Shown here: piece after piece, positions 478 through 60,681 of the stretch | How the letters are laid out: each line of letters begins with the position of its first letter | How positions within the stretch are numbered: the stretch's first letter is position 1 | Assembly (NCBI GenBank): GCA_014874365.1 | Contig: JACWAH010000024.1 | Location: 124,001 to 188,000, forward strand | DNA length: 64,000 nucleotides | DNA from: Thermoplasmatales archaeon | GTDB taxonomy: Archaea; Thermoplasmatota; Thermoplasmata; Thermoplasmatales; Thermoplasmataceae | Direction: 5' to 3' | The notes under the pieces: generated by a model | What the model saw: only the letters and a program-made list of their open reading frames with translations | Databases searched by the model: none | What the model was told of the DNA's origin: nothing | Translations under genes and position numbers: made by a program

Positions 478-1770
478 ATGAGTGAATTCGATGCGATAGT
501 GGTGGGAGCGGGACCTGCAGGCACATCGGCTGCCTCGAAGATGGCAAGCTCGGGATTGAATGTGCTGCTGGTAGAAAGAGGTGACCCGCCGGGAAGCAAA
601 AGCGTATCGGGTGGAATACTCTGGGGGAGGGAACTATCCAACCTGTATCCGGATTGGGAGAAGAGCGCTCCTCTTGAGAGATTCATAAGCAACAAAGTCA
701 CAGGTTTCTTGACCGAGGATTCATACGTTGGAATTGATTTTAAAACCAAGAAGTTTGAGCGGGAAAAAACCGGATATTCAGTTCTCAGAACAAGGCTCGA
801 CGGCTGGATGGCAAAAAAGGCTAAGGAGGCTGGGGCTACTGTAATTACTGGCATAACTGTCGATGGACTTGCCTGGGAAGACAAGAAAGTTGTCGGGATA
901 AGACAGGCGGATGACACCATAACTTCGGACGTCGTGGTACTGGCCGAAGGCGCAAATCCGCGTGTGGCGATTGATGAAGGACTCAGGGCTCCAATAAGTG
1001 ATAAGGATGTTGCAATCGGGATTAAGCAGGTTGTCAAGCTGTCGGAACAGACGATCAACGAGAGATTTAATCTCAGGAATGGCGCTGGACTTGCAGCTGA
1101 ATTTTCCCTTGGCTTCCTGAAAAACGGTGTAATGGCGGGCGGTTTCCTTTATACAAACAAGGACACAATCTCGGCAGGGGTTGTAATCGATATCGCCGGT
1201 CTCAGGAAAGATAACAAGACCTATTCCTTTGACATTATGGATCAATTCATCAATCATCCATATATTGCACCTTATCTGGAAAATGGGCAACTGCAGGAAT
1301 ACAGTGCACACCTTGTCTGTGAGGGTGGCATAAATTACGTACCTAAACTTTACGGAAACGGATACGTCATTGCAGGTGATTCTGCAGGACTGTCATTCAG
1401 CAACGGAATGGTTATTCAGGGCATGAATTATGCCATTGCATCAGGAATATCCGCTGCAAAGGCAGCAGTCAAATGCAAGGAAAAGGGGCACTACGGGGAG
1501 AGCGATCTTGCATATTATGACGAACTAATGCAACATTCACAGGCAATAGAGGATATGAGAAAATTCAAGGGAATAACCGGTGTGACATGGAGTCCGATGA
1601 TCCATGAATTCCTACCAAAGTTTGCTGAAAACGTTTTGCATGACATGTTTTACGAAACAGGTGAACCGAAAAAGCATCTCTTCGAGATTGCAATGGAGAA
1701 CCTGATAGGCAGCCGCTACGACAAAAAGAAACTCCTGCTGGAATCATACAGAATGATGAGGAAGATGTAG
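478..1770 (+). CDS. fixC: FixC-like FAD-dependent electron-transfer flavoprotein:quinone oxidoreductase
   Basis: A 430-residue flavoprotein of the geranylgeranyl reductase/FixC family. Residues 4-20 carry the Rossmann FAD-binding motif DAIVVGAGPAGTSAA, an acidic ribose-binding residue follows in LLVERGD, and GYVIAGDSAGL near residue 300 is the second FAD motif. FixC accepts electrons from Etf (FixAB) and with the ferredoxin FixX passes them to the quinone pool at the membrane. The next gene is fixX, starting directly after the stop, then etfB and etfA, so the whole electron path is one operon. It probably oxidises Etf reduced by acyl-CoA dehydrogenase, such as the one at 48402. A geranylgeranyl reductase role in lipid saturation is the alternative, but the operon favours FixC. 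Confidence 0.85.
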   Translation: MSEFDAIVVGAGPAGTSAASKMASSGLNVLLVERGDPPGSKSVSGGILWGRELSNLYPDWEKSAPLERFISNKVTGFLTEDSYVGIDFKTKKFEREKTGYSVLRTRLDGWMAKKAKEAGATVITGITVDGLAWEDKKVVGIRQADDTITSDVVVLAEGANPRVAIDEGLRAPISDKDVAIGIKQVVKLSEQTINERFNLRNGAGLAAEFSLGFLKNGVMAGGFLYTNKDTISAGVVIDIAGLRKDNKTYSFDIMDQFINHPYIAPYLENGQLQEYSAHLVCEGGINYVPKLYGNGYVIAGDSAGLSFSNGMVIQGMNYAIASGISAAKAAVKCKEKGHYGESDLAYYDELMQHSQAIEDMRKFKGITGVTWSPMIHEFLPKFAENVLHDMFYETGEPKKHLFEIAMENLIGSRYDKKKLLLESYRMMRKM

Positions 1771-2043
1771 ATGAATATCGAGGAAAAGTTATCCGTACTT
1801 AACTACAAGACCGATCCAACGTATGAGCATATAACCGTAAATCCCTCAATCTGCGAAGTATGCCCTGATAATTTCTGTACTTTTGCATGTCCGGCAAGTT
1901 GCTACAAGATGATTGACGGCAAACTGAACTTCAAGTACGAGGACTGCGTTGAGTGCGGTACCTGTTTTGTTGCCTGCTCACATGGAAGCGTCAAATGGAC
2001 CAATCCTAAGGGGAGCCAGGGAATCAAGTACAAACTGGGGTAA
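1771..2043 (+). CDS. fixX: FixX ferredoxin-like protein
   Basis: A 90-residue iron-sulfur protein. Cysteines at 28, 31, 36, 40 and 44 and at 59, 62, 65 and 69 form two cluster motifs, the second being CVECGTCFVAC, which fits a 4Fe-4S cluster. FixX is the small partner of FixC in electron-transfer flavoprotein:quinone oxidoreductases and is equivalent to the C-terminal ferredoxin domain of mitochondrial ETF-QO. Its ATG follows the fixC stop with no gap, so translation is probably coupled. The family and the gene order leave little doubt about the assignment. Confidence 0.87.
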   Translation: MNIEEKLSVLNYKTDPTYEHITVNPSICEVCPDNFCTFACPASCYKMIDGKLNFKYEDCVECGTCFVACSHGSVKWTNPKGSQGIKYKLG

Positions 2044-2048
2044 TCAAG

Positions 2049-2843
2049 ATGGTTCTGGAAATTGTAGTAATGGTGAAACAGGTCCCGGATAGCCAGGAAG
2101 TTGTAATTGACCCCGTTACGATGAATCTTAACAGGAGTCTGACGAGGAATGTTACCAACAAGGCAGATGAAAATGCTCTGGAGGCAGCTTTATCGATCAA
2201 GGACAAGACCCCGGCAAAGATAACAATCGTTTCAATGGGGCCGCCGCAGACCGAGTCGACTATGATTGAATGCCTTGCAAGAGGAGCCGACAGAGCAGTT
2301 CTTGTCTCTGACAGAGCCTTTGGAGGAGCCGACACATACCCTACCGGTTTGACCGTAGCTTCAGCTATTTCCAAGCTCGAACACTTTGACGTTATAATCG
2401 CCGGGGAAGAATCTTCCGATTCCAGTACAGGTCATGTTGGACCCGGAGTTGCAGAGTTTTTGGGAATCGAGCAAATCACATATTGCAGCAAAATAGAATA
2501 CTCAAAGGGCCACATTACCGCAGAAAGGGAACTCGAGGATGGGACAGAAGTTGTTCGTTGTCCAGTACCGGTCCTTATTACAATGCTGCTTGGATCTAAT
2601 TTTCCCAGAAGGCAGTCGCTGAGAAGAAAAATAGATGCGACAAAGAAAGGAATTGAACTCTGGAACCTTGAAAAACTGGGGCTTCAACCTGAATGGGTCG
2701 GCGTCAGGGGATCGCCTACCATTGTTAGAAGGATGCAGTCCATAAAAGAAAGGGAGCGTGCGGGAAAGCGGATCACTATAGAAACTATACCAGAAATGGT
2801 CAAGGAACTTTACGAGAAGAACATCCTGAAGGTGAAAAAGTAA
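2049..2843 (+). CDS. etfB: Electron transfer flavoprotein beta subunit (FixA)
   Basis: A 264-residue protein of the ETF beta/FixA family. The N-terminus VVMVKQVPDSQEV and the central segment IIAGEESSDSSTGHVGPGVAEFLG are characteristic, the second forming part of the nucleotide-binding fold. With EtfA it makes the heterodimer that carries electrons from flavin dehydrogenases to FixCX. The gene starts 5 bases after fixX and ends one base before etfA. Some FixAB-CX systems bifurcate electrons from NADH to ferredoxin and quinone; whether this pair does cannot be decided from the reading done here. Confidence 0.9.
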   Translation: MVLEIVVMVKQVPDSQEVVIDPVTMNLNRSLTRNVTNKADENALEAALSIKDKTPAKITIVSMGPPQTESTMIECLARGADRAVLVSDRAFGGADTYPTGLTVASAISKLEHFDVIIAGEESSDSSTGHVGPGVAEFLGIEQITYCSKIEYSKGHITAERELEDGTEVVRCPVPVLITMLLGSNFPRRQSLRRKIDATKKGIELWNLEKLGLQPEWVGVRGSPTIVRRMQSIKERERAGKRITIETIPEMVKELYEKNILKVKK

Positions 2844-2844
2844 A

Positions 2845-3915
2845 ATGGTTGGCCTTTTATTTGCTAAACCAGTTGATAAGCCTGAAGAGTACAAGAACGT
2901 CTTTGTTTACCTTGAAAACGGACAGGGAAAGCTTAAACGCGTCGCCCTGGAAATGATTGGTATTGGAAAACAACTTGCTTCAAAGGTTAACGAAGAATTA
3001 GTTGGGATCCTGATTGGTAACGATATTGAGGATATGGCCAAGGAGGCTGCATCGTATGGATGCGACAGGGTGATTGGTACGCAGTCCAAAGATCTTGCAG
3101 ACTTCAGGACGGTTCCATACGCCAACATTGTAGGTGATATCGTTTTGAAAGAGAAACCCAATGTCTTCCTGATTCCAGCCACGAGGAACGGAAGGGATCT
3201 TGCCTCAAGGATTGCAGTTAAGTGCCAGGCCGGTGTCACTGCCGATTGCACAGAGCTGGACATAGAAGCAGACACGCACATACTGTCTGCCCACAGACCA
3301 ACATATGGGGAAAGTATGCTCGCAGAAATTTTATGCAGGAAACACAGACCACAGATGGCTACTGCAAGAGCAGGAATATTCAAGGTTCCGGATAGATCCG
3401 GGGAACCCCCAAAGGGCAAGATTGAAATCAATAACGTGAAGATAGATAAGGAATACCTGGTCAAGGAGATACTCGAATTCAGGAAGAAGGAAAAGATTGA
3501 CCTGACTGCCGCAGAGACGGTTGTTTCTGGCGGGTTGGGACTCGGCGGGCCCGAAGGATTCAAGCAGATTGAACAGCTTGCGAAAGTACTTGGCGGAGAA
3601 GTGGGAGCTTCAAGACCCACCGCAGATCTTGGATGGATATCAAGGGATCACCAGGTTGGCCAGACTGGAACTACTGTAAGACCAAAACTATACGTTGCAG
3701 CAGGAATTTCTGGAAAGATCCAGCACATTATGGGAATGAAGAACAGCGAAACAATAATCGCGATAAATACGGACCCGAATGCTGAGATTGTCAAATATTC
3801 AGACTATTTCATAAATGACGATGTAAAGAAGGTCATTCCCGCACTCATTAAGGCCTTAAAAAATTATAAACCGGAAGCAAAGGATGCAGCGAAAGCAGAA
3901 GCGGTTTCAAAGTAA
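2845..3915 (+). CDS. etfA: Electron transfer flavoprotein alpha subunit (FixB)
   Basis: A 356-residue ETF alpha/FixB protein. The C-terminal FAD domain is clear: VSGGLGLGGPEGF, GASRPTADLGWI, then QVGQTGTTVRPKLYVAAGISGKIQH and an INTDPNAEI motif, which together bind FAD. The N-terminal half carries the ETF alpha/beta-like fold shared with EtfB. It is the last gene of the fixCX-etfBA operon, separated from etfB by one base. A convergent hemB gene ends 77 bases downstream. Confidence 0.92.
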   Translation: MVGLLFAKPVDKPEEYKNVFVYLENGQGKLKRVALEMIGIGKQLASKVNEELVGILIGNDIEDMAKEAASYGCDRVIGTQSKDLADFRTVPYANIVGDIVLKEKPNVFLIPATRNGRDLASRIAVKCQAGVTADCTELDIEADTHILSAHRPTYGESMLAEILCRKHRPQMATARAGIFKVPDRSGEPPKGKIEINNVKIDKEYLVKEILEFRKKEKIDLTAAETVVSGGLGLGGPEGFKQIEQLAKVLGGEVGASRPTADLGWISRDHQVGQTGTTVRPKLYVAAGISGKIQHIMGMKNSETIIAINTDPNAEIVKYSDYFINDDVKKVIPALIKALKNYKPEAKDAAKAEAVSK

Positions 3916-3992: not shown

Positions 3993-4967
3993 CTAATTTT
4001 TGGTTTCCTGATATCTTTTTCCGAGTTCAAGCGCGAAATAAGAAATGACAATGTCAGCCCCAGCCCTGAATATTGAGTAAATGTACTCGTCCAGAACCTC
4101 TGCTGGCAGGATTCCTTTTTCCAGGGCGGTCTTCAGCATTGAGTATTCCCCGCTAACGCTGTAAACTGCAAGGGGGAGGCTGAACTTTTGCTTAACGGAT
4201 TTCACAATATCCAGGTAAAACAGGCCTGGTTTCACCATAATTACGTCTGCCCCTTCTTCAACGTCCATCGACGTTTCAAGGATAAACTCTTCAGCACGCC
4301 TGTAGTCCATCTGATAGCTCTTCCTGTCCCCTATTTTTGGTGCAGAATCGGCTGCATCCCTGAACGGGCTATAAAGCGAGGAGGCATACTTGTTGCTATA
4401 TGCCATTATCATCACATTCTGGTAACCGGCGGCATCTAGAGCTTTTCTGATGGACCCAACCTGGCCGTCCATCATTCCGCTGGGCGCTACAAAATCGGCA
4501 CCTGCTTTTGCATAACTTACCGCAATTCTATTGTATACAGAAAGTGTGGAATCGTTGTCAACATAACCATCCTTGATTATTCCGCACTGGCCTGTATCTG
4601 TATATTCACAGAGACACAGATCCACAAAAACATTGACCTTGAATTTTTCCTTGGCGAGTGATATTGCTCTTTGAACTATTCCGTCTTCGGCATAAGACGA
4701 GCTTCCAATGGAATCTTTCTTTCCTGGAATCCCGAATAAAAGGATGTTGGTTATTCCAGAAGAAACGAGATCTTCAAGATGAATTGAAAAAGACTTCAGG
4801 TCATACCTGAATATCCCCGGCATTGATGGAATTTCCCTCTTTCCGTTCAGGCTCTCATCCAGAAAAATTGGCATAACCAGTTTCTTCGTGTTTATTGAAA
4901 ACTCAGACAACATATCTCTGATTAACTGACTGGATCTGCCACGTCTCATTCTCGTTGCTGGGAACAT
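3993..4967 (-). CDS. hemB: Delta-aminolevulinic acid dehydratase (porphobilinogen synthase)
   Basis: A 324-residue enzyme that condenses two 5-aminolevulinate molecules into porphobilinogen in heme and siroheme synthesis. The Schiff-base lysines are Lys193 (in MAYSNKYASS) and Lys246 (in VIMVKPGL). Cys118, Cys120 and Cys128 in DLCLCEYTDTGQCG match the catalytic zinc site of zinc-dependent members. A TATA-like CTTAAATTTGA on the minus strand about 25 bases upstream supports the ATG at 4967 with a leaderless message. No other heme gene is nearby, so it stands alone here. Confidence 0.95.
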   Translation of the reverse strand: MFPATRMRRGRSSQLIRDMLSEFSINTKKLVMPIFLDESLNGKREIPSMPGIFRYDLKSFSIHLEDLVSSGITNILLFGIPGKKDSIGSSSYAEDGIVQRAISLAKEKFKVNVFVDLCLCEYTDTGQCGIIKDGYVDNDSTLSVYNRIAVSYAKAGADFVAPSGMMDGQVGSIRKALDAAGYQNVMIMAYSNKYASSLYSPFRDAADSAPKIGDRKSYQMDYRRAEEFILETSMDVEEGADVIMVKPGLFYLDIVKSVKQKFSLPLAVYSVSGEYSMLKTALEKGILPAEVLDEYIYSIFRAGADIVISYFALELGKRYQETKN

Positions 4968-4969
4968 AA

Positions 4970-4997
4970 GGCATAAATGTTCATCTCAAATTTAAGG
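4970..4997. promoter_or_regulatory. Overlapping divergent promoters of hemB and the gene at 5004
   Basis: Reading left, CTTAAATTTGA near 4986-4996 is about 25 bases from the hemB ATG at 4967. Reading right, GCATAAATG at 4971-4979 is about 28 bases from the ATG at 5004. The two TATA elements are interleaved in fewer than 40 bases, so a pre-initiation complex on one should block the other. This is read from sequence spacing only. Confidence 0.4.
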
Positions 4998-5003
4998 GGT
5001 ACC

Positions 5004-5351
5004 ATGGGAGATATGTTTCAGGTCAGGGCAGCCTCCGAGATTGTCATTCCTGCTGAGCTGATGGAATCCCTGGTAACCAAGCATGATTCTGGCAATGGAA
5101 TTCTTGTGGAGGCCAGCCTGCTGAAACCAGAGACTGGCGTTCTCTCGTACGACATTTCGGGGAACAGGCTCAAGATATTCTATGACTATGAGGGTGAATC
5201 CCGTGAAACTGTGTTTAGACTGGGGCTGGGAACCGTATCAGAGATATCCGTGATGATCCTGACGGAAATACTGAAATCGTTCCACGAAAACGTAAAATAC
5301 CCGTCCATTAAGGGAATTTGGATTGAATGGATCAAGCCGCTTAGGCCATAA
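5004..5351 (+). CDS. Conserved-looking hypothetical protein, 115 residues
   Basis: A small soluble protein beginning MGDMFQVRAASEIVIPAEL and ending WIEWIKPLRP. I do not recognise the family. An upstream in-frame ATG at 4977 exists, but the TATA-like element at about 4971-4979 would overlap it, so ATG 5004 is preferred. There are no cysteines, no membrane segment and no signal peptide; the composition suggests an alpha/beta domain with a long helix (SEISVMILTEILKSFHEN). It overlaps the 3' end of the convergent ATPase gene by 11 bases. Confidence 0.55.
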   Translation: MGDMFQVRAASEIVIPAELMESLVTKHDSGNGILVEASLLKPETGVLSYDISGNRLKIFYDYEGESRETVFRLGLGTVSEISVMILTEILKSFHENVKYPSIKGIWIEWIKPLRP

Positions 5352-22908: not shown

Positions 22909-24873
22909 TCAGAATGGCAATGAATTAATCGCAGCCCAGTCTCCTAATCCCTTTATTTCTGAGATGTAATTTATGTGGTCGGCACGAGAAGATCGCTTCC
23001 AGTGTTCATACATGCCCCGAACGAACTGCTGCTCGACCCCGCGTTCCACCACGTAATAATTGGTTACGATTCCGTGCTTTACCGTCAAGCTGTTGAACAA
23101 CGGGCCTGTGTATCTGTTGACAACCTCACTATAAAAATCATTGAAGTAGCTCGTCTCAATAACAAATTCTACTATTTTGTTTGTCTTATTGATAATGGTG
23201 TGCTTGCCTCTTCCCTTAATGTCAAGCGTTGAAAGTTTTGAAACTAGGCGATTTTCCCTGCTGTTCGCCACTGTCTTCGGGATATAAGTTCCTTCGTTTT
23301 GAAAAACGCCCATGACGTCTGTTTCAAGTTGTTTTTTCGTAGGCTCCCACACGGTCTTGATTACTGTAAAATTATTCAGATCGTTTCCAAGACCCTCATA
23401 TTCCTTCAGAAGCAAGGGATAATTCCAAAATCTTTCACCAATGTAAGTGAGTTCCTTTTTGAATGGTATTTCTTCCTGCAGAAATTCTTCTATTATTTTG
23501 TTAGCAATTTCGTTCGTGCTTCGATGAAATTCAATACAAATGTGCAGATCTTCGCCAACTTGAAGAATGTCTGGCACCACTCTGCAACCCGGTGCAGATG
23601 TCACCTTTTCAATCAGTGGTAGAATAAATCTTGGGGCATTCCCGCGAATAATACCGTTCAAAGAAAGAAGCTGCTCGCCGCCTCCCCATGATTTTACGTA
23701 TTTCCTGGCAGATTCGTATTCAAGTTCATTGGGGTGCTGGCCAATATTCTGGGATAGATACCAGCTCCCATTTTCATTGAATAAAAGGTGGAACCGTTCA
23801 CCGGATTTTCTGGGTCTTAAAACGTTTGCCTTGGTTACAGGTGGCAGGAGTCCTTTAACTGAGAGAATGGCACAGTGGTTCAGAGTCCCGCCTGCCATAC
23901 GCTTTTCTTTTGCAGGTAAACTTTCCATTCCAGCTAAGTTGTATTCCAACCACCTCTTATAGTCCGAAAAATAAGTCAATTGGGGTCTCCAATCCGGCAC
24001 GTCCTCTGCGGAGGAGTAGAAAATATTGAGCCAGTCATTGGAGAGAGCCGATGGGATAATCTCAAGAACTCTTAACAATCCATCTTTAAAAGTATGGATT
24101 GCTCCCACAGTAATCACTCTTTTATCGTTCTTTCTATTATTGATATAGGTCAAGTAATCATTCCCGGTTTTAGCGCTATACAGTTCTTGTTCCACAATCG
24201 TATGCAACCTTTCTTCTGTACGGGGGATTTCACTGGGAATGACTATTCCAAAGATATTTTCGCTTCCGTAGGGCAACTTGTTTATCCTGACCCAGTCATT
24301 CCCCATGGGGTTATTTTTCTCAGTCAATTCAATTTTAGGAGGAATCAAGTCGATTATCGCAACTTGCAATCCTATACTGTTGTCAATCTTTGAAAAAATC
24401 TCTGTGAATCCCTCAGAAACGCCCAGGTAATCCAGTGAAAATCCTTCTATTCCGGAAGTTTCAAGAGATATTATATCAGATACGAGCTTAATCTCTGAAT
24501 TATGAAACAGGAACTCCGCATGGAAAATTCCATTCTTGAGCCAGAAGTATGTAAGGGCGACAGAGTTTAACCCGATTAAATTCATCAAAAGTTTGACGTA
24601 ATTGATGGTAAGGTTCTCCTCTACCTTCACTCTCCAGACCCCTTCGGCCTCAACTGCATCGAATTCCCTTAAGAAGATTCTGAGTTCCCTACTCTTTTCA
24701 GAGTTCTCAGGGAAAAAATAAGTGATCTCTGCTTTCTTTTCGGTCAGGCGGAGTCCGCCAGCGGCGCTGATCCCGAACTCTTTTGATAACTCGGAAATCT
24801 TCGTTTTGGCAGTAAACGAAATTCTTAACACTCTGTCAAGTTTGTCGATTTTGCTTAGGATTCCAGGTGTCAA
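22909..24873 (-). CDS. Large hypothetical protein with duplicated domain, paralogue of the upstream gene
   Basis: A 654-residue protein of no family I recognise. Its first ~310 residues match the whole of the upstream 312-residue protein: shared points include GVWR[IV]K, FLFH[HN]S[DE]IK, DY[LF]G.[ST]EG, SKID and IIP..LS..WL. The C-terminal half repeats part of the pattern (ICIEFHRSTNEIANKIIEEF followed by LTYIGERF), so the protein seems built of two related modules. No membrane segment or signal is visible. It starts at TTG behind a G-rich GAGGGG site. The FxFH...I..I pattern recalls the sensor half of Thermoplasmata HTH-10 regulators, but no HTH is present; that link is only a guess. Confidence 0.65.
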   Translation of the reverse strand: MTPGILSKIDKLDRVLRISFTAKTKISELSKEFGISAAGGLRLTEKKAEITYFFPENSEKSRELRIFLREFDAVEAEGVWRVKVEENLTINYVKLLMNLIGLNSVALTYFWLKNGIFHAEFLFHNSEIKLVSDIISLETSGIEGFSLDYLGVSEGFTEIFSKIDNSIGLQVAIIDLIPPKIELTEKNNPMGNDWVRINKLPYGSENIFGIVIPSEIPRTEERLHTIVEQELYSAKTGNDYLTYINNRKNDKRVITVGAIHTFKDGLLRVLEIIPSALSNDWLNIFYSSAEDVPDWRPQLTYFSDYKRWLEYNLAGMESLPAKEKRMAGGTLNHCAILSVKGLLPPVTKANVLRPRKSGERFHLLFNENGSWYLSQNIGQHPNELEYESARKYVKSWGGGEQLLSLNGIIRGNAPRFILPLIEKVTSAPGCRVVPDILQVGEDLHICIEFHRSTNEIANKIIEEFLQEEIPFKKELTYIGERFWNYPLLLKEYEGLGNDLNNFTVIKTVWEPTKKQLETDVMGVFQNEGTYIPKTVANSRENRLVSKLSTLDIKGRGKHTIINKTNKIVEFVIETSYFNDFYSEVVNRYTGPLFNSLTVKHGIVTNYYVVERGVEQQFVRGMYEHWKRSSRADHINYISEIKGLGDWAAINSLPF

Positions 24874-24987
24874 ATTCCCCTCGAATTCAATGCGCCTTCC
24901 TACTTAGATTTATTGGTGGAATCTTCCAACAAGTCGTGGTAAAGAGCCGGCAGGCCATTTTGCATTTTCGAGTAATGGTATTGAACT

Positions 24988-25926
24988 TCAGGACTCCCTT
25001 TTTGCCCAGCTGCTGAATGAGGTGAAACTGGTGAGTACCGGTTTCCAGCTACTGAAGTCATCAACAGTCGCTTTCCACACTGAGAGCCACTCTTGTGATA
25101 AAATCGCCGGAATAATCACGGTTGCATTGAATTTAGGGCTCTTGAATTCATGCATTCTTCCAATGGTAGCGACCCTGGCAGTATTCAATTCTTTGTTCAC
25201 ATAGCTGGAATAGGGGTTTTCGGCAAATCCCTGATAGATCGAGTTTTTTTCTATCATCAGGAAATTTTTCAACTTGGGGGATTTCCCGTTTGTAAAGTAG
25301 ATCCCATTCCCTTTTTCCCCTCCATATGGATTCTTCAAGATTCTTGTCCATGAATCTCCAAAGGGATCAATTTCAGGCTTTAGAGATTCAGGCGGGATTG
25401 TACTTTCTACTTCAGCCACATACAGGCCCATTCTTTCGTCTATTTTTGAAAGCACGGTGAGGTAACCTTCGGTGGGGCCAAAATAATCAATAGTCAGGCT
25501 CATAGGTTTTGAGGAAATGTCCATCACGATATTGGAAACCTTCTTGATGTCAGAATGATGGAAAAGGAAACCCGCCTGGTATTGCCCCTTCTCGAACCAC
25601 AAATCAGTAATGATCGAGGATGGAACTTCAATCAGGTCTTTGACTATCTGTACGGGCTCGCTGGGTTCCGGGATCTCCCTCTTTATTCTCCATACTCCAT
25701 TCTTCTCTATAGCGTTGTACTGACGCAGAAACATTGCAGTATCCCTGCTTATGTTCTGTTTACTCGAAAAGTAGTATGTGCCTTCGGTATATTTGTCACC
25801 GAAATAGAGGCCAAGATACGCACTTATCTTGAATTTCTTCGAATGCTCCCCAAACTTGGTCTCAGACTGCATAGTTAATCTAAGTTCAGTGTCAAGCTTG
25901 TTTAGGGTGTCGGGCAAAGAAGTCAT
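24988..25926 (-). CDS. Hypothetical protein, paralogue of the N-terminal half of the 654-residue neighbour
   Basis: A 312-residue soluble protein beginning MTSLPDTLNKLDTELRL. It aligns along its length with the first ~310 residues of the gene downstream, so the pair arose by duplication, either with loss or gain of the second module. Conserved residues such as those in GFLFHHSDIKKVSNIV and the final aromatic block (SFTSFSSWAKRES) suggest a shared fold. The gap to the neighbour is 114 bases on the same strand and the two may be one transcript. Function unknown. Confidence 0.65.
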   Translation of the reverse strand: MTSLPDTLNKLDTELRLTMQSETKFGEHSKKFKISAYLGLYFGDKYTEGTYYFSSKQNISRDTAMFLRQYNAIEKNGVWRIKREIPEPSEPVQIVKDLIEVPSSIITDLWFEKGQYQAGFLFHHSDIKKVSNIVMDISSKPMSLTIDYFGPTEGYLTVLSKIDERMGLYVAEVESTIPPESLKPEIDPFGDSWTRILKNPYGGEKGNGIYFTNGKSPKLKNFLMIEKNSIYQGFAENPYSSYVNKELNTARVATIGRMHEFKSPKFNATVIIPAILSQEWLSVWKATVDDFSSWKPVLTSFTSFSSWAKRES

Positions 25927-26278: not shown

Positions 26279-27037
26279 ATGGAAAAGGAGAAAGACTTAT
26301 TCAGCGGTAAAACAGAGGCTTATGCTAAGCACAGACCTACCTATCCAAAGGAAGTTCTGGAGGTCCTGAGCGACAAATACCAGTTCAATTCGAAAATGTT
26401 CGTAGCGGATATCGGTAGTGGAACTGGTATATTATCAAGAATGTTTCTGGAAAATGGAAACACCGTAACCTGCGTAGATCCCAGCGACGAAATGCTGGAC
26501 AAGGCACGGGAAGAACTGAAGGAGTTTCCAAATGTCCAATTTGTAAGGGGACACGCAGAGAGCACTGGGCTTAAAGATGGCAGCGTTAACCTCATAGCGG
26601 CAGGACAATCATTTCACTGGTTTAAACCCGATAAAGCCAAAGTTGAATTCAAAAGAATACTCAGGGGGCCAAACGTAGTTGCGATGATCTGGAACGACAG
26701 GGAAGAAAGCATCAATAGTTTCAACGCAGAGTATGAAAGAATCTGCAGGAAATATAGCCCTAAATACCATTCTACTGGTAGCATGAGCGTCTCAGAGGAG
26801 GCAATATCGGACTTTTTTGGCTGGTCCCACGACTATTATGAATTCAAGAACAACCAGGAGTTGGACCTGGATGGTATTATTGGAAGGTATTCGTCGGCCT
26901 CGTACAGTATCCCAAAAAGCGATGAAAATTACAGATCCCTGGTAACTGAGTTCACGGAGGCGTTTTCTGCGTTCAGCTCAAATAATAAGGTTACCCTGAA
27001 GTACAACACCAGAATGTTTGTTGGGCACCTTAAATAG
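26279..27037 (+). CDS. Class I SAM-dependent methyltransferase (Methyltransf_11 type)
   Basis: A 252-residue methyltransferase. FSGKTEAYAKHRPTYP at the N-terminus, VADIGSGTGILSRMF as SAM motif I, and CVDPSDEMLDKARE as motif II are typical of the UbiE/trans-aconitate methyltransferase-like group that starts with a RP.YP motif. AAGQSFHWF marks motif post-II. The acceptor substrate is unknown. A second methyltransferase lies just downstream on the other strand. Confidence 0.8.
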   Translation: MEKEKDLFSGKTEAYAKHRPTYPKEVLEVLSDKYQFNSKMFVADIGSGTGILSRMFLENGNTVTCVDPSDEMLDKAREELKEFPNVQFVRGHAESTGLKDGSVNLIAAGQSFHWFKPDKAKVEFKRILRGPNVVAMIWNDREESINSFNAEYERICRKYSPKYHSTGSMSVSEEAISDFFGWSHDYYEFKNNQELDLDGIIGRYSSASYSIPKSDENYRSLVTEFTEAFSAFSSNNKVTLKYNTRMFVGHLK

Positions 27038-27135: not shown

Positions 27136-27876
27136 TTACGGCTTTCTAGAAATTATGACCCCTCTGGATTTGATAAAGGAATTCCCATCAAAGCCAATCC
27201 TTTCATGAAAATAGCTCTTGTTTTGCTCAAGGAGCTTGACGCAGGCTGTTCCCTCTGCAGATTCCCTCTTAACTGGACTTAGCCACTTTTCAAAGGAAAC
27301 TCTCTCTTCCTGGACTTCACTGAATGTAATTTCGAATCCCGATTCAATAATCAGTTTCTTCCAGGAAATGAAAGATTCCGCCCCCACATGTGATGGATCC
27401 CGTATTATTTCCATTTTGTTGAAAAGGTCCTCAGTATCCATCTCCGGTGCAATCATGTCCACGAAGCCGAAGTACCCGCCGTGCTTGAGTATCCTGAAGG
27501 TTTCGGCCAGAAATCTGGCCTTGTGCTGAAAATGGTGTGCTGCCCGTCGACAGGTTGCAAGGTCAAATGTGTTTGAGAGAAAAGGCACATTCTCTACGTC
27601 CCCAAGAACAAATATTATATTATCAAGGTTTTTGCCAGAAGCAAGCAGTCTCGCCTGGCTCATCATCTCTTCAGTCTTGTCGAAAGCTATTACAAATTTG
27701 GAACGTTCTGAAATTCTAACTGCCGTAAAACCAGTTCCTGTCGCTAGATCTATAGAAGCAGCATTCTTAAGACCTGGAAGGTTTCTCATAAGAGTGAGAA
27801 GGTCCCCCCCCTCCGCGTGAGACTGGCTTTTTGAATAATCGTCGGCATGTTCGGTGAATAAGTCCGGAGACGCCAT
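27136..27876 (-). CDS. Class I SAM-dependent methyltransferase (UbiE/COQ5-like)
   Basis: A 246-residue methyltransferase. SIDLATGTGFTAVRI is SAM motif I, IAFDKTEEMMSQARLLA motif II, and FDLATCRRAAHHFQ with FLAETFRILKHGGYFGFVDM are the later core strands, close to the UbiE/menaquinone methylase group. No quinone genes are adjacent, so the substrate stays open. It is convergent with the methyltransferase at 26279 and does not look like its recent duplicate. Confidence 0.8.
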   Translation of the reverse strand: MASPDLFTEHADDYSKSQSHAEGGDLLTLMRNLPGLKNAASIDLATGTGFTAVRISERSKFVIAFDKTEEMMSQARLLASGKNLDNIIFVLGDVENVPFLSNTFDLATCRRAAHHFQHKARFLAETFRILKHGGYFGFVDMIAPEMDTEDLFNKMEIIRDPSHVGAESFISWKKLIIESGFEITFSEVQEERVSFEKWLSPVKRESAEGTACVKLLEQNKSYFHERIGFDGNSFIKSRGVIISRKP

Positions 27877-30048: not shown

Positions 30049-30462
30049 ATGTCCAACAAGGTATCTTTAATACTGTTTTCCGGAAACATTGACAAACTGA
30101 TGGCAGGATCCATAATCGCTTCTGGTGCAGTTGCAAATGAGATGGAGGTTAACATATTCGTTACATTCTGGGCTTTGCTGCAACTGAAGAAGAATGGTGC
30201 CCCTCCTCCGACATTGAGTCCGGAAGCTGGTAAAATGGCTCCTCAGATAATGAAGGTAATGAAAGAAAAGAAAATCCCTTCATGGCTTGACACGATAAAA
30301 CAAATCAGCGAGATAGGAAAAGTCAACGTATATGGCTGCTCAATGTTTGCAGACCTCCTGGAAATGAATAAGGATGAGTTTGATCCGATCATGAAAGACC
30401 TGATAGGTGTTTCACAGTTCGTGGATATGTCAAAAGATTCCAGCATGACCCTGTTTCTCTAA
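30049..30462 (+). CDS. DsrE/DsrF-like sulfur-transfer family protein
   Basis: A 137-residue protein of the DsrE2-like group. KVSLILFSGNIDKLMAGSIIASGAVANEMEVNIFVTFWAL is the classic start and VNVYGCSMFADLL contains Cys97, the position that carries persulfide in active members. It heads an operon with TusA, an SQR-like oxidoreductase and DUF1641, a setting linked to handling of sulfane sulfur or thiosulfate in archaea and bacteria. Confidence 0.82.
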   Translation: MSNKVSLILFSGNIDKLMAGSIIASGAVANEMEVNIFVTFWALLQLKKNGAPPPTLSPEAGKMAPQIMKVMKEKKIPSWLDTIKQISEIGKVNVYGCSMFADLLEMNKDEFDPIMKDLIGVSQFVDMSKDSSMTLFL

Positions 30463-30477
30463 TCAAGAGGTGAAAAT

Positions 30478-30717
30478 ATGGATGAAGTAAAACCAACCAA
30501 AGTGATAGATGCGAGAGGAAGTTTCTGTCCCGGGCCGCTGATGGAATTGATAAAGGCGTACAAGCAGGGTAAGGTAGGCGATGTGATCTCAGTGTATTCT
30601 ACAGACAATGGAACCAAGAAAGACGCGCCTGAATGGATTAAGAAATCAGGCAACGAACTAATAGGAATATTTGATCGCAGCGGATACTTCGAAATCGTGA
30701 TGAGAAAGTCCAAGTAG
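30478..30717 (+). CDS. tusA: TusA-family sulfur carrier
   Basis: A 79-residue protein with the motif [17 protein letters not shown]; Cys17 in CPGP is the sulfur-carrying residue. TusA proteins shuttle persulfide sulfur between enzymes, and in sulfur oxidisers partner DsrE proteins. A Shine-Dalgarno site GAGGTGA precedes the ATG, so this internal gene is read from a polycistronic message. Confidence 0.88.
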
Positions 30718-30725
30718 TGGAATTC

Positions 30726-31871
30726 ATGGCAATTAATAGAAAAAGAGTCGTGATTGTAGGGGATGGTGCCGCAGGTACCATAATGGCCAACAAACTGAGA
30801 TTTCATTCTACCCCGGAAGAAATTGAAATAGACGTCTTCGGTAACTCCGAGAGGCACTACTTTAAACCGGATGGGGTGCAGATCCCATTTGGTTTCAAGG
30901 ATCCTGCTAACAGCTTTAAGCCTACACAGTCACTTTTCAACTATGGAATCAACTACCTGAAGGCCAATATCCGGAAATTTGACCTTGAAAATTCAACAGT
31001 AACTTGTGAAAAGAATAGGACGTTCAAGTATGACTACCTCATCATAGCAACAGGTGATAGATTTTCGACGGAAGAACTTCCTGGATATGATAAAGCAGCT
31101 TCCCATTTCTATAGTCTTGAGGCATCCATGGAGCTCAGGCAGAAGCTGAGAGATTTTAAGGGAGGCAAGATTGTTATCGGACAGGCGAGCATACCAATTC
31201 AGTGTCCACCTGCGCCCTATGAATTCACTTTCCAGCTGGATCAATACCTTAAGCTGAAAGGGATAAGAGATAAGACGGAAATTCACTATATTTATCCATT
31301 GAACAGGGTCTTCACAATCCCAAATGTGTCTGACTTTATTGAAAGACTTATGGAAGAAAGAGGAATTGTCATCCACAAAATGTTCAACGTCGATTCGCTC
31401 GACCCTATGGGAAAGAAGATAAACTCCCTGGAGGGGGAAACTCTGGATTACGATCTTCTGATTCTTGTTCCTCCCCACAGTGGTCAAAAGATAATCACTG
31501 AGAACGGACTTGCGGATAATAGTGGATATATAGCGGTCGACAGAAACCATCTCAACTACAAAGATTATGACAATGTTTTCGCAATTGGAGATGCGACAGA
31601 TTTACCCATTTCAAAAGCGGGAGCCACCGCCCATTTCCAGTCTGAATACCTCGCAAATAGAATATCAAACGAGGTCAACGGAAACGCATACTTCGAGGCT
31701 TATAATGGAGATGTTGCCTGCACCACAATAACTGGTGGCAATGAAGCCATTACACTATTTTTTAGCTATACCAGGCCACCGAAGGCAAATTTTGAGAGTA
31801 AGGCGGATTATTTCCTGAAATGGACCTCGTCCGATACCTACTTTTCAGCTATGCTGAGAGGGATAATGTAA
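30726..31871 (+). CDS. Sulfide:quinone oxidoreductase-like FAD enzyme
   Basis: A 381-residue two-dinucleotide-binding flavoprotein (VVIVGDGAAGTIMAN at the N-terminus, VFAIGDATDLP near residue 287). Cys160 in IQCPPAPYE and Cys332 in VACTTITGG align with two of the redox cysteines of sulfide:quinone oxidoreductases; the third (Cys128 type) is not seen, as in some SQR subgroups. It probably oxidises sulfide or a persulfide carried by TusA/DsrE and reduces quinone. The ATG at 30726 is preferred to the GTG overlapping the tusA stop. Confidence 0.8.
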   Translation: MAINRKRVVIVGDGAAGTIMANKLRFHSTPEEIEIDVFGNSERHYFKPDGVQIPFGFKDPANSFKPTQSLFNYGINYLKANIRKFDLENSTVTCEKNRTFKYDYLIIATGDRFSTEELPGYDKAASHFYSLEASMELRQKLRDFKGGKIVIGQASIPIQCPPAPYEFTFQLDQYLKLKGIRDKTEIHYIYPLNRVFTIPNVSDFIERLMEERGIVIHKMFNVDSLDPMGKKINSLEGETLDYDLLILVPPHSGQKIITENGLADNSGYIAVDRNHLNYKDYDNVFAIGDATDLPISKAGATAHFQSEYLANRISNEVNGNAYFEAYNGDVACTTITGGNEAITLFFSYTRPPKANFESKADYFLKWTSSDTYFSAMLRGIM

Positions 31872-59853: not shown

Positions 59854-59905
59854 GACCTTATTAGATCAGCTGAGGGCATTCTATAATTTTTGGCGCGTCA
59901 TATGA
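59852..59905 (+). pseudogene. Right part of the IS-interrupted host gene
   Basis: Joining the host frame at TTAC (58284) to 59852 gives a continuous C-terminus FYQTLLDQLRAFYNFWRVI ending in TGA at 59903. The fit depends on the exact IS right end, and one shift would break it. The TATA of the HTH-10 gene lies just past this piece. Confidence 0.35.
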
Positions 59906-59943
59906 CGCCCAAATGTATAAAATACAGGACCCAATTCTTCGCC

Positions 59944-60681
59944 ATGGAGCTATGGGAAGCCATTTTCAGGTCGAGCATGGACACTGCTCACACGAGTTTA
60001 TCGAAACAGTTTCCAGACAGGTTCTTTGTGATGTGGTACATATGGAATCGTCAGGTACTGAAATTCTCACCAGTCAACGGAGAACAGTTCAACGAGGTAA
60101 TAGATTTCCTCAGGGGCAGGCATATTCTTCTGGAGAAGCAATTAAGGTTCCAGGATGGAGTATTCTTGCTGATGAGGGAGGAGGGAAACGATAAATTTGA
60201 TGTCTGGAGCATTGCCGAAAGAAACCAATGCATAGAGTTACCTCCGGCCACTTTCTCAGGCGGAACTGGCGTCTTCAGATTTGCTGGTTTTGATGAAAAG
60301 AGCATCAACAATCTTATAGCTGAAGTGGAGGCATTTGGGGAGGTCAAATTGGTTTCCAAGAAAAAACTGCCAGTAAACATTCTTAGGTCGAGCATTTGGG
60401 TAAACTCCATATTTTCCGCCTTGACAGAAAGGCAGGCAGAGTGCTTGATCAGGGCACAGGCAGAGGGATACTACATACTTCCTCGAAGGACCCGGACAGA
60501 AGACATAGCCAGGAATATTGGATTAAGCAGATCTACATTTGAAGCTCACTTGCGAAAGGCTGAAAACGCAATCATCAACTCGTTTGTTCCCTATTTGCAA
60601 TTGTTCAGTTCCACTTCAACGGACCAGTCGTTTCACCACCAGACGATAGACATCGCCATCTCCAGTGCAAGCGAGATTTAG
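59944..60681 (+). CDS. HTH-10 (bacterio-opsin activator-like) transcription regulator
   Basis: A 245-residue protein. The C-terminal HTH_10 domain is clear: LTERQAECLIRAQAEGYYILPRRTRTEDIARNIGLSRSTFEAHLRKAENAII. The first ~150 residues are a sensor-type domain without a known ligand. A TATA-like TGTATAAAATAC about 27 bases before the ATG at 59944 supports that start; the in-frame TTG at 59890 lies upstream of it. It is followed directly by an MFS transporter gene it may control. Confidence 0.85.
   Translation: MELWEAIFRSSMDTAHTSLSKQFPDRFFVMWYIWNRQVLKFSPVNGEQFNEVIDFLRGRHILLEKQLRFQDGVFLLMREEGNDKFDVWSIAERNQCIELPPATFSGGTGVFRFAGFDEKSINNLIAEVEAFGEVKLVSKKKLPVNILRSSIWVNSIFSALTERQAECLIRAQAEGYYILPRRTRTEDIARNIGLSRSTFEAHLRKAENAIINSFVPYLQLFSSTSTDQSFHHQTIDIAISSASEI

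Follow-up and report, generated by a model that had tools for sequence, protein, structure and literature searches.

We analyzed a window of 64,000 nucleotides of DNA, positions 124,001 to 188,000 of the forward strand of contig JACWAH010000024.1, from the Thermoplasmatales archaeon assembly GCA_014874365.1. Two related genes are neighbors on the minus strand of the window. The upstream gene (24988 to 25926, minus strand) encodes a 312-residue protein, and the downstream gene (22909 to 24873, minus strand), which begins with a TTG start codon, encodes a 654-residue protein; 114 bp separate the two open reading frames (ORFs). A search for DNA-level repeats in the stretch between both genes found just short matches. 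The larger protein has two modules, which we call N-type (residues 1 to 309; 23947 to 24873, minus strand) and C-type (residues 310 to 654, with the linker at its start; 22912 to 23946, minus strand); the smaller protein is a stand-alone N-type module. As an earlier note on this DNA had claimed, the genes are an adjacent paralogous pair, and the small protein, over its full length, resembles the N-terminal half of the large protein. BLASTP aligned residues 7 to 306 of the 312-residue protein with residues 8 to 307 of the 654-residue protein without gaps; 108 of the 300 positions (36%) were identical (E = 2e-63), and thus the significant similarity whose absence would have counted against the note is present. 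Just upstream of the pair are two related genes resembling SAM-methyltransferase genes, which face each other (26279 to 27037, plus strand; 27136 to 27876, minus strand). Elsewhere in the window (30049 to 31871, plus strand), a DsrE-like gene is followed after about 250 bp by a gene for a Pyr_redox_2 flavoprotein, which has a weak match, below the cutoff, to the central domain of sulfide dehydrogenase; these two genes are perhaps involved in sulfur redox chemistry.

The earlier note considered the family apparently undescribed, and it named a strong match to a described family as a sign against that view. Such a match was found for both proteins: each fits the Pfam family PF19020 (Ta1207), whose founding member has a crystal structure (5M86), far above the curated cutoff of 26.3 bits. 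On the PF19020 profile, which is 277 positions long, the 312-residue protein covered positions 2 to 275 (E = 2.4e-61; 207.6 bits), and residues 16 to 289 of the N-type module of the 654-residue protein covered positions 2 to 276 (E = 3.2e-54; 184.3 bits). Neither protein matched any other Pfam family at E ≤ 10 or any NCBIfam family at E ≤ 10, and 36 family members gave just scattered single matches to NCBIfam, with E values of 0.014 or worse. Membrane or secretion features were not apparent in the two proteins. A literature search on Ta1207, PF19020, and 5M86 found no paper on the family and no stated function.

Structure prediction, which the note had proposed, gave a fold match to 5M86 for both proteins. 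The AlphaFold2 models had pLDDT values of 88.4 for the 312-residue protein (pTM, 0.88; 14 rows) and 88.0 for the 654-residue protein (pTM, 0.87; 31 rows). Foldseek returned a single solved structure at E ≤ 0.001, 5M86 (E = 1.8e-21; TM, 0.81); the next best match had an E value of 0.0084. By VIA-align, the 312-residue model matched 5M86 with a Z score of 27.4 (rmsd, 3.1; 301 aligned positions). The corresponding values for the 654-residue model were a Z score of 29.2, an rmsd of 2.8, and 296 aligned positions, but these refer to the best placement only, which is on the N-type module (residues 3 to 306), the C-type module having been folded only as part of the whole protein. All other listed chains had Z scores of 6.5 or less, a range that the tool calls common. 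We do not claim a fold like that of bacterial microcompartment shell proteins, as shell-protein and designed-cage chains scored within that range (Z scores of 5.1 to 6.5; for shell-protein chains against the 312-residue model, 5.1 to 6.0 over 73 to 87 residues); neither protein matched the microcompartment shell-protein families in Pfam. A PDB search by sequence with a single protein as the query missed 5M86 (best E = 0.7), but the fold searches and the Ta1207 family profile found it, the latter at 5.4e-14 (10 chains in one entry).

5M86 is the Ta1207 protein of Thermoplasma acidophilum, and it shares fold and family with the 312-residue protein and the N-type module at 14% identity in the structural alignments. 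With 333 residues, it has just one module, whereas the window encodes a two-module protein as well as a single-module protein. The oligomeric state of 5M86 is probably a ring-shaped pentamer. Genome G151 and the window share a taxonomic family. Because a G151 protein (L148) matches 5M86 at 9.2e-219, this genome is that of T. acidophilum or a very near relative. From the way in which helices and strands follow one another in the model, we read the N-type module as three successive α/β units that appear to be of the ferredoxin-like type.

The second half of the 654-residue protein had been described as repeating part of the pattern of the first. Pairwise BLASTP found no significant repeat there (the best further piece scored 16 bits; E = 2.2), and the repeat became visible in profile-profile comparisons. 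An N-type alignment of 36 rows (A1) matched an alignment of 25 relatives of the second half over 196 columns (E = 2.4e-7; probability, 93%). With only 4 relatives, the values were 1.9e-5 and 77%, and control profiles that were reversed (n = 1) or column shuffled (n = 8) gave E values of 0.21 to 0.65. The FxFH and Y-x-G pattern that the note had pointed out in the second half lies within the aligned stretch. On our reading of the AlphaFold2 model, the order of helices and strands is similar in both halves. All three modules, the 312-residue protein and the two halves of the 654-residue protein, descend from one ancestral Ta1207-fold domain. The Ta1207 family was thus already named and structurally solved; what is new is the two-module variant and a conserved C-type partner to which Pfam is largely blind.

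Of the profile searches that the note had suggested for each module, those with the N-type modules found the Pfam family, and the C-type module of the window alone found none: it had no Pfam match at E ≤ 1 and did not reach the PF19020 cutoff. For this reason, we refer to it as a homologous C-type module and not as a PF19020 member in its own right. PF19020 matched 21 of 25 C-type members at E ≤ 1, and 4 of the 10 C-type relatives scanned in detail passed the cutoff; the top-scoring one did so at 2.5e-38 and covered nearly the full profile. As judged by these profile matches, the C-type is homologous to the N-type/Ta1207 profile family. A C-type profile found no chain in the PDB at E ≤ 10. Among 117 genomes of the order, a C-type profile matched 49, 45 in family-level group f1 and 4 in group f3. 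Of 77 f1 genomes, 45 encode a C-type relative, and 40 of these 45 have one copy. There was no match in G003, a genome of the same genus as the window.

Most C-type relatives are genes of their own; examples are L117:7995-8969 (Thermoplasmatales archaeon E-plasma) and L132:1503-2516 (G151). The products of these separate genes are homologs of the C-terminal half of the 654-residue protein (19 to 42% identity) and share its conserved signature, which is described below. They occur with or without an upstream N-type gene, and some exceed the Ta1207 cutoff, unlike the C-type module of the window. In genome G328 (L145), a C-type gene whose product is about 125 residues longer at the N terminus (2202 to 3581, plus strand) faces an N-type gene (4254 to 5162, minus strand), with one ORF between them. 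In the f3 genome G058 (L135), two C-type genes, the second much diverged, lie head to head (1469 to 2515, minus strand; 2701 to 3717, plus strand).

Relatives, for which the note had advised looking, were found in other archaeal genomes. Of the 61 related genomes searched, 46 had a Ta1207 match at E ≤ 0.001, and in 44 of these the match exceeded the cutoff. Matches were present in all 37 f1 genomes (1 to 14 copies, some in tandem clusters), in 9 of 9 f3 genomes, and in 0 of 15 genomes from other families of the order. A phylum-wide draw gave matches in 28 of 292 genomes, all f1, and 14 control genomes gave none. In the genomes searched, the family did not occur outside two groups of family rank within a single order. 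We rejected viral or plasmid cargo: neither the 312-residue protein nor a C-type alignment (A4) found a relative in the viral_contigs set, the 312-residue protein, used alone, had no match among plasmids and phages, a fold search with the 312-residue model found nothing viral at E ≤ 0.001, and PHROGs gave a best E value of 0.02 for the 654-residue protein and none for the 312-residue protein. A defense system was also rejected, PADLOC having matched neither the two proteins nor two of the small upstream ORFs described below.

In the genome of the window, 5 contigs together carry 8 Ta1207 matches, including the 312- and 654-residue genes. The remaining six copies are not next to this pair; one is on the contig of the window at a distance of about 46 kb. 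The view that the expansion is local is not supported. A tree in which the small protein and the N-type module of the large one are each other's closest kin was weakly rejected (AU test, P = 0.033). In a careful tree, the 312-residue protein was separate from the N-type module of the 654-residue protein; it grouped (98/93 support) with its counterpart in genome G002 and with three proteins of genus g3 that have a single module. The small-then-large gene order is kept in G002. The two genes probably became neighbors before the species arose, and not by a recent tandem duplication.

To describe how N-type and C-type modules are associated, we used 30 C-type loci from the best-scoring genomes among the 45. 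The N-type is fused to the C-type in 4 of these loci, from three genomes of the window's genus (g1) and from G343. In 9 more, an N-type gene is directly upstream on the same strand; these are from six genera (g3, g11, g13, g15, g16, and g17). The predicted gaps between the paired genes range from −86 to +39 bp and include two 4-bp overlaps; the −86-bp value is probably due to a start codon predicted too far upstream. At 15 of the 30 loci there is no adjoining N-type gene, and therefore the C-type does not need an adjacent partner; at the remaining 2, the upstream sequence was too short. Five of the 15 unpaired loci, in five genomes, have an ORF of 128 to 175 codons in the upstream place (L077:940-1464, L078:1084-1467, L079:1037-1489, L080:1430-1903, and L081:2462-2845). 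Four copies of this small ORF (from L107 to L110) had no Pfam match above the cutoff; it is possibly an alternative partner of the C-type. Except for the N-type gene and this small ORF, no neighbor was conserved beyond close relatives, and we therefore gave up assigning a function from neighbors.

The modules of the gene pairs and of the g1 fusions did not form one clade either for the C-type (AU test, P = 0.000175) or for the N-type (P = 0.0186), with test groups set by gene order and, for the N-type test, a quick tree already seen. It follows that N-type and C-type modules were joined at least twice. The G343 fusion (L085 and L112; 677 residues) resembles that of the window in having an N-type and then a C-type module in one open frame, but both of its modules belong to the gene-pair clade, and the two fusions therefore have separate origins. 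The G343 fusion may be due to a recent loss of the stop codon between two genes.

Independent association on at least two occasions points to a working N/C complex, and the joining of both types in one chain suggests that they work together. The pTM of 0.87 over 654 residues would fit halves that have a defined position relative to each other. We consider it probable that N-type and C-type modules assemble into a heteromeric complex of which the 654-residue protein would be the single-chain version. The strongest competing explanation is that frequent duplication in a growing family produced the fusion and the neighboring copy incidentally and that the modules do no joint work. The copy numbers and tandem clusters in f1 genomes would agree with this, as would the half of the C-type loci that are unpaired; however, the N-then-C order is constant in six genera, and separate C-type and N-type lineages became associated more than once. 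We think this explanation rather unlikely.

In a 24-row C-type alignment that includes f1 and f3 members with identities to the window's copy as low as 19%, W509, G522, F524, N526, and N635 (numbering of the 654-residue protein) are present in every row; 23 rows have K533 and R630, and 22 have D579 and H633. The codons for these residues span 22969 to 23349 (minus strand). The predicted order of the strands would place D579, R630, H633, and N635 together at an edge of the final unit. In the N-type alignment of 36 rows, S103 is the single invariant residue, but many paralogs are mixed there, so that a comparison of N-type with C-type within the same loci is fairer than one of alignment-wide invariance. 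Within the pair clade (10 loci), the C-type was more similar than the N-type in 43 of 45 comparisons (mean identities, 58% versus 49%), and with all 13 loci this was true of 73 of 78 comparisons. The three g1 fusions showed the reverse, with the N-type half better conserved in all 3 comparisons.

We tentatively suggest that the C-type module holds the working site, a pocket whose near-invariant residues (Asn, Lys, Asp, Arg, and His) would bind or convert a small ligand, and that the N-type modules would serve as structural (scaffold) partners that have been multiplied and varied. The ligand-binding or catalytic site is a prediction from conserved residues; no neighbor, family name, or structural match names a ligand or a reaction. 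A different division of labor would make the C-type an enzyme and the N-type a catalytically dead regulatory copy. The near-invariant polar residues of the C-type, set against the one invariant residue of the paralog-mixing N-type alignment, would be expected of such a pair, but no enzyme family was matched by the two proteins, the C-type module, or the C-type members, and the structural matches other than 5M86 were all in the common range. We find this unlikely, a little more so than duplication without joint work.

Descent of all three modules from one domain (two as N-type members, the second half of the 654-residue protein as a C-type member), together with N/C assembly and a C-type working site, is the best overall explanation, and we give it a probability of about one-half. 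Points against it are the unpaired C-type loci, the better conserved N-type half of the g1 fusions, and the absence of a C-type match in G003. Its fullest form is more doubtful: the C-type, with a single conserved putative ligand-binding or catalytic site, may be the functional core of a so far unstudied complex in acidophilic archaea and may have gained N-type partners independently at least twice, as adjacent or overlapping gene pairs and by covalent fusion. For a family with a solved structure, no stated function that we could find, and up to 14 copies in small archaeal genomes, the C-type signature and the recurrent pairing are handles, providing residues to mutate and a partner to copurify. 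The natural 654-residue fusion should give a stoichiometric complex for structural work.

We consider it very improbable that the modules are ligand-sensing domains akin to those of archaeal HTH_10 (Bat-type) regulators that have lost the DNA-binding part: a resemblance of motifs, no more than a lead, and 7 HTH_10 matches in the genome speak for it, but neither protein had an HTH_10 match in Pfam, and the profiles of both module types scored at background against 21 long ORFs of the HTH_10 loci (best E = 0.06). One of the 7 HTH_10 matches is in the window itself, in a gene for a Bat-type regulator at 59890 to 60681 (plus strand).
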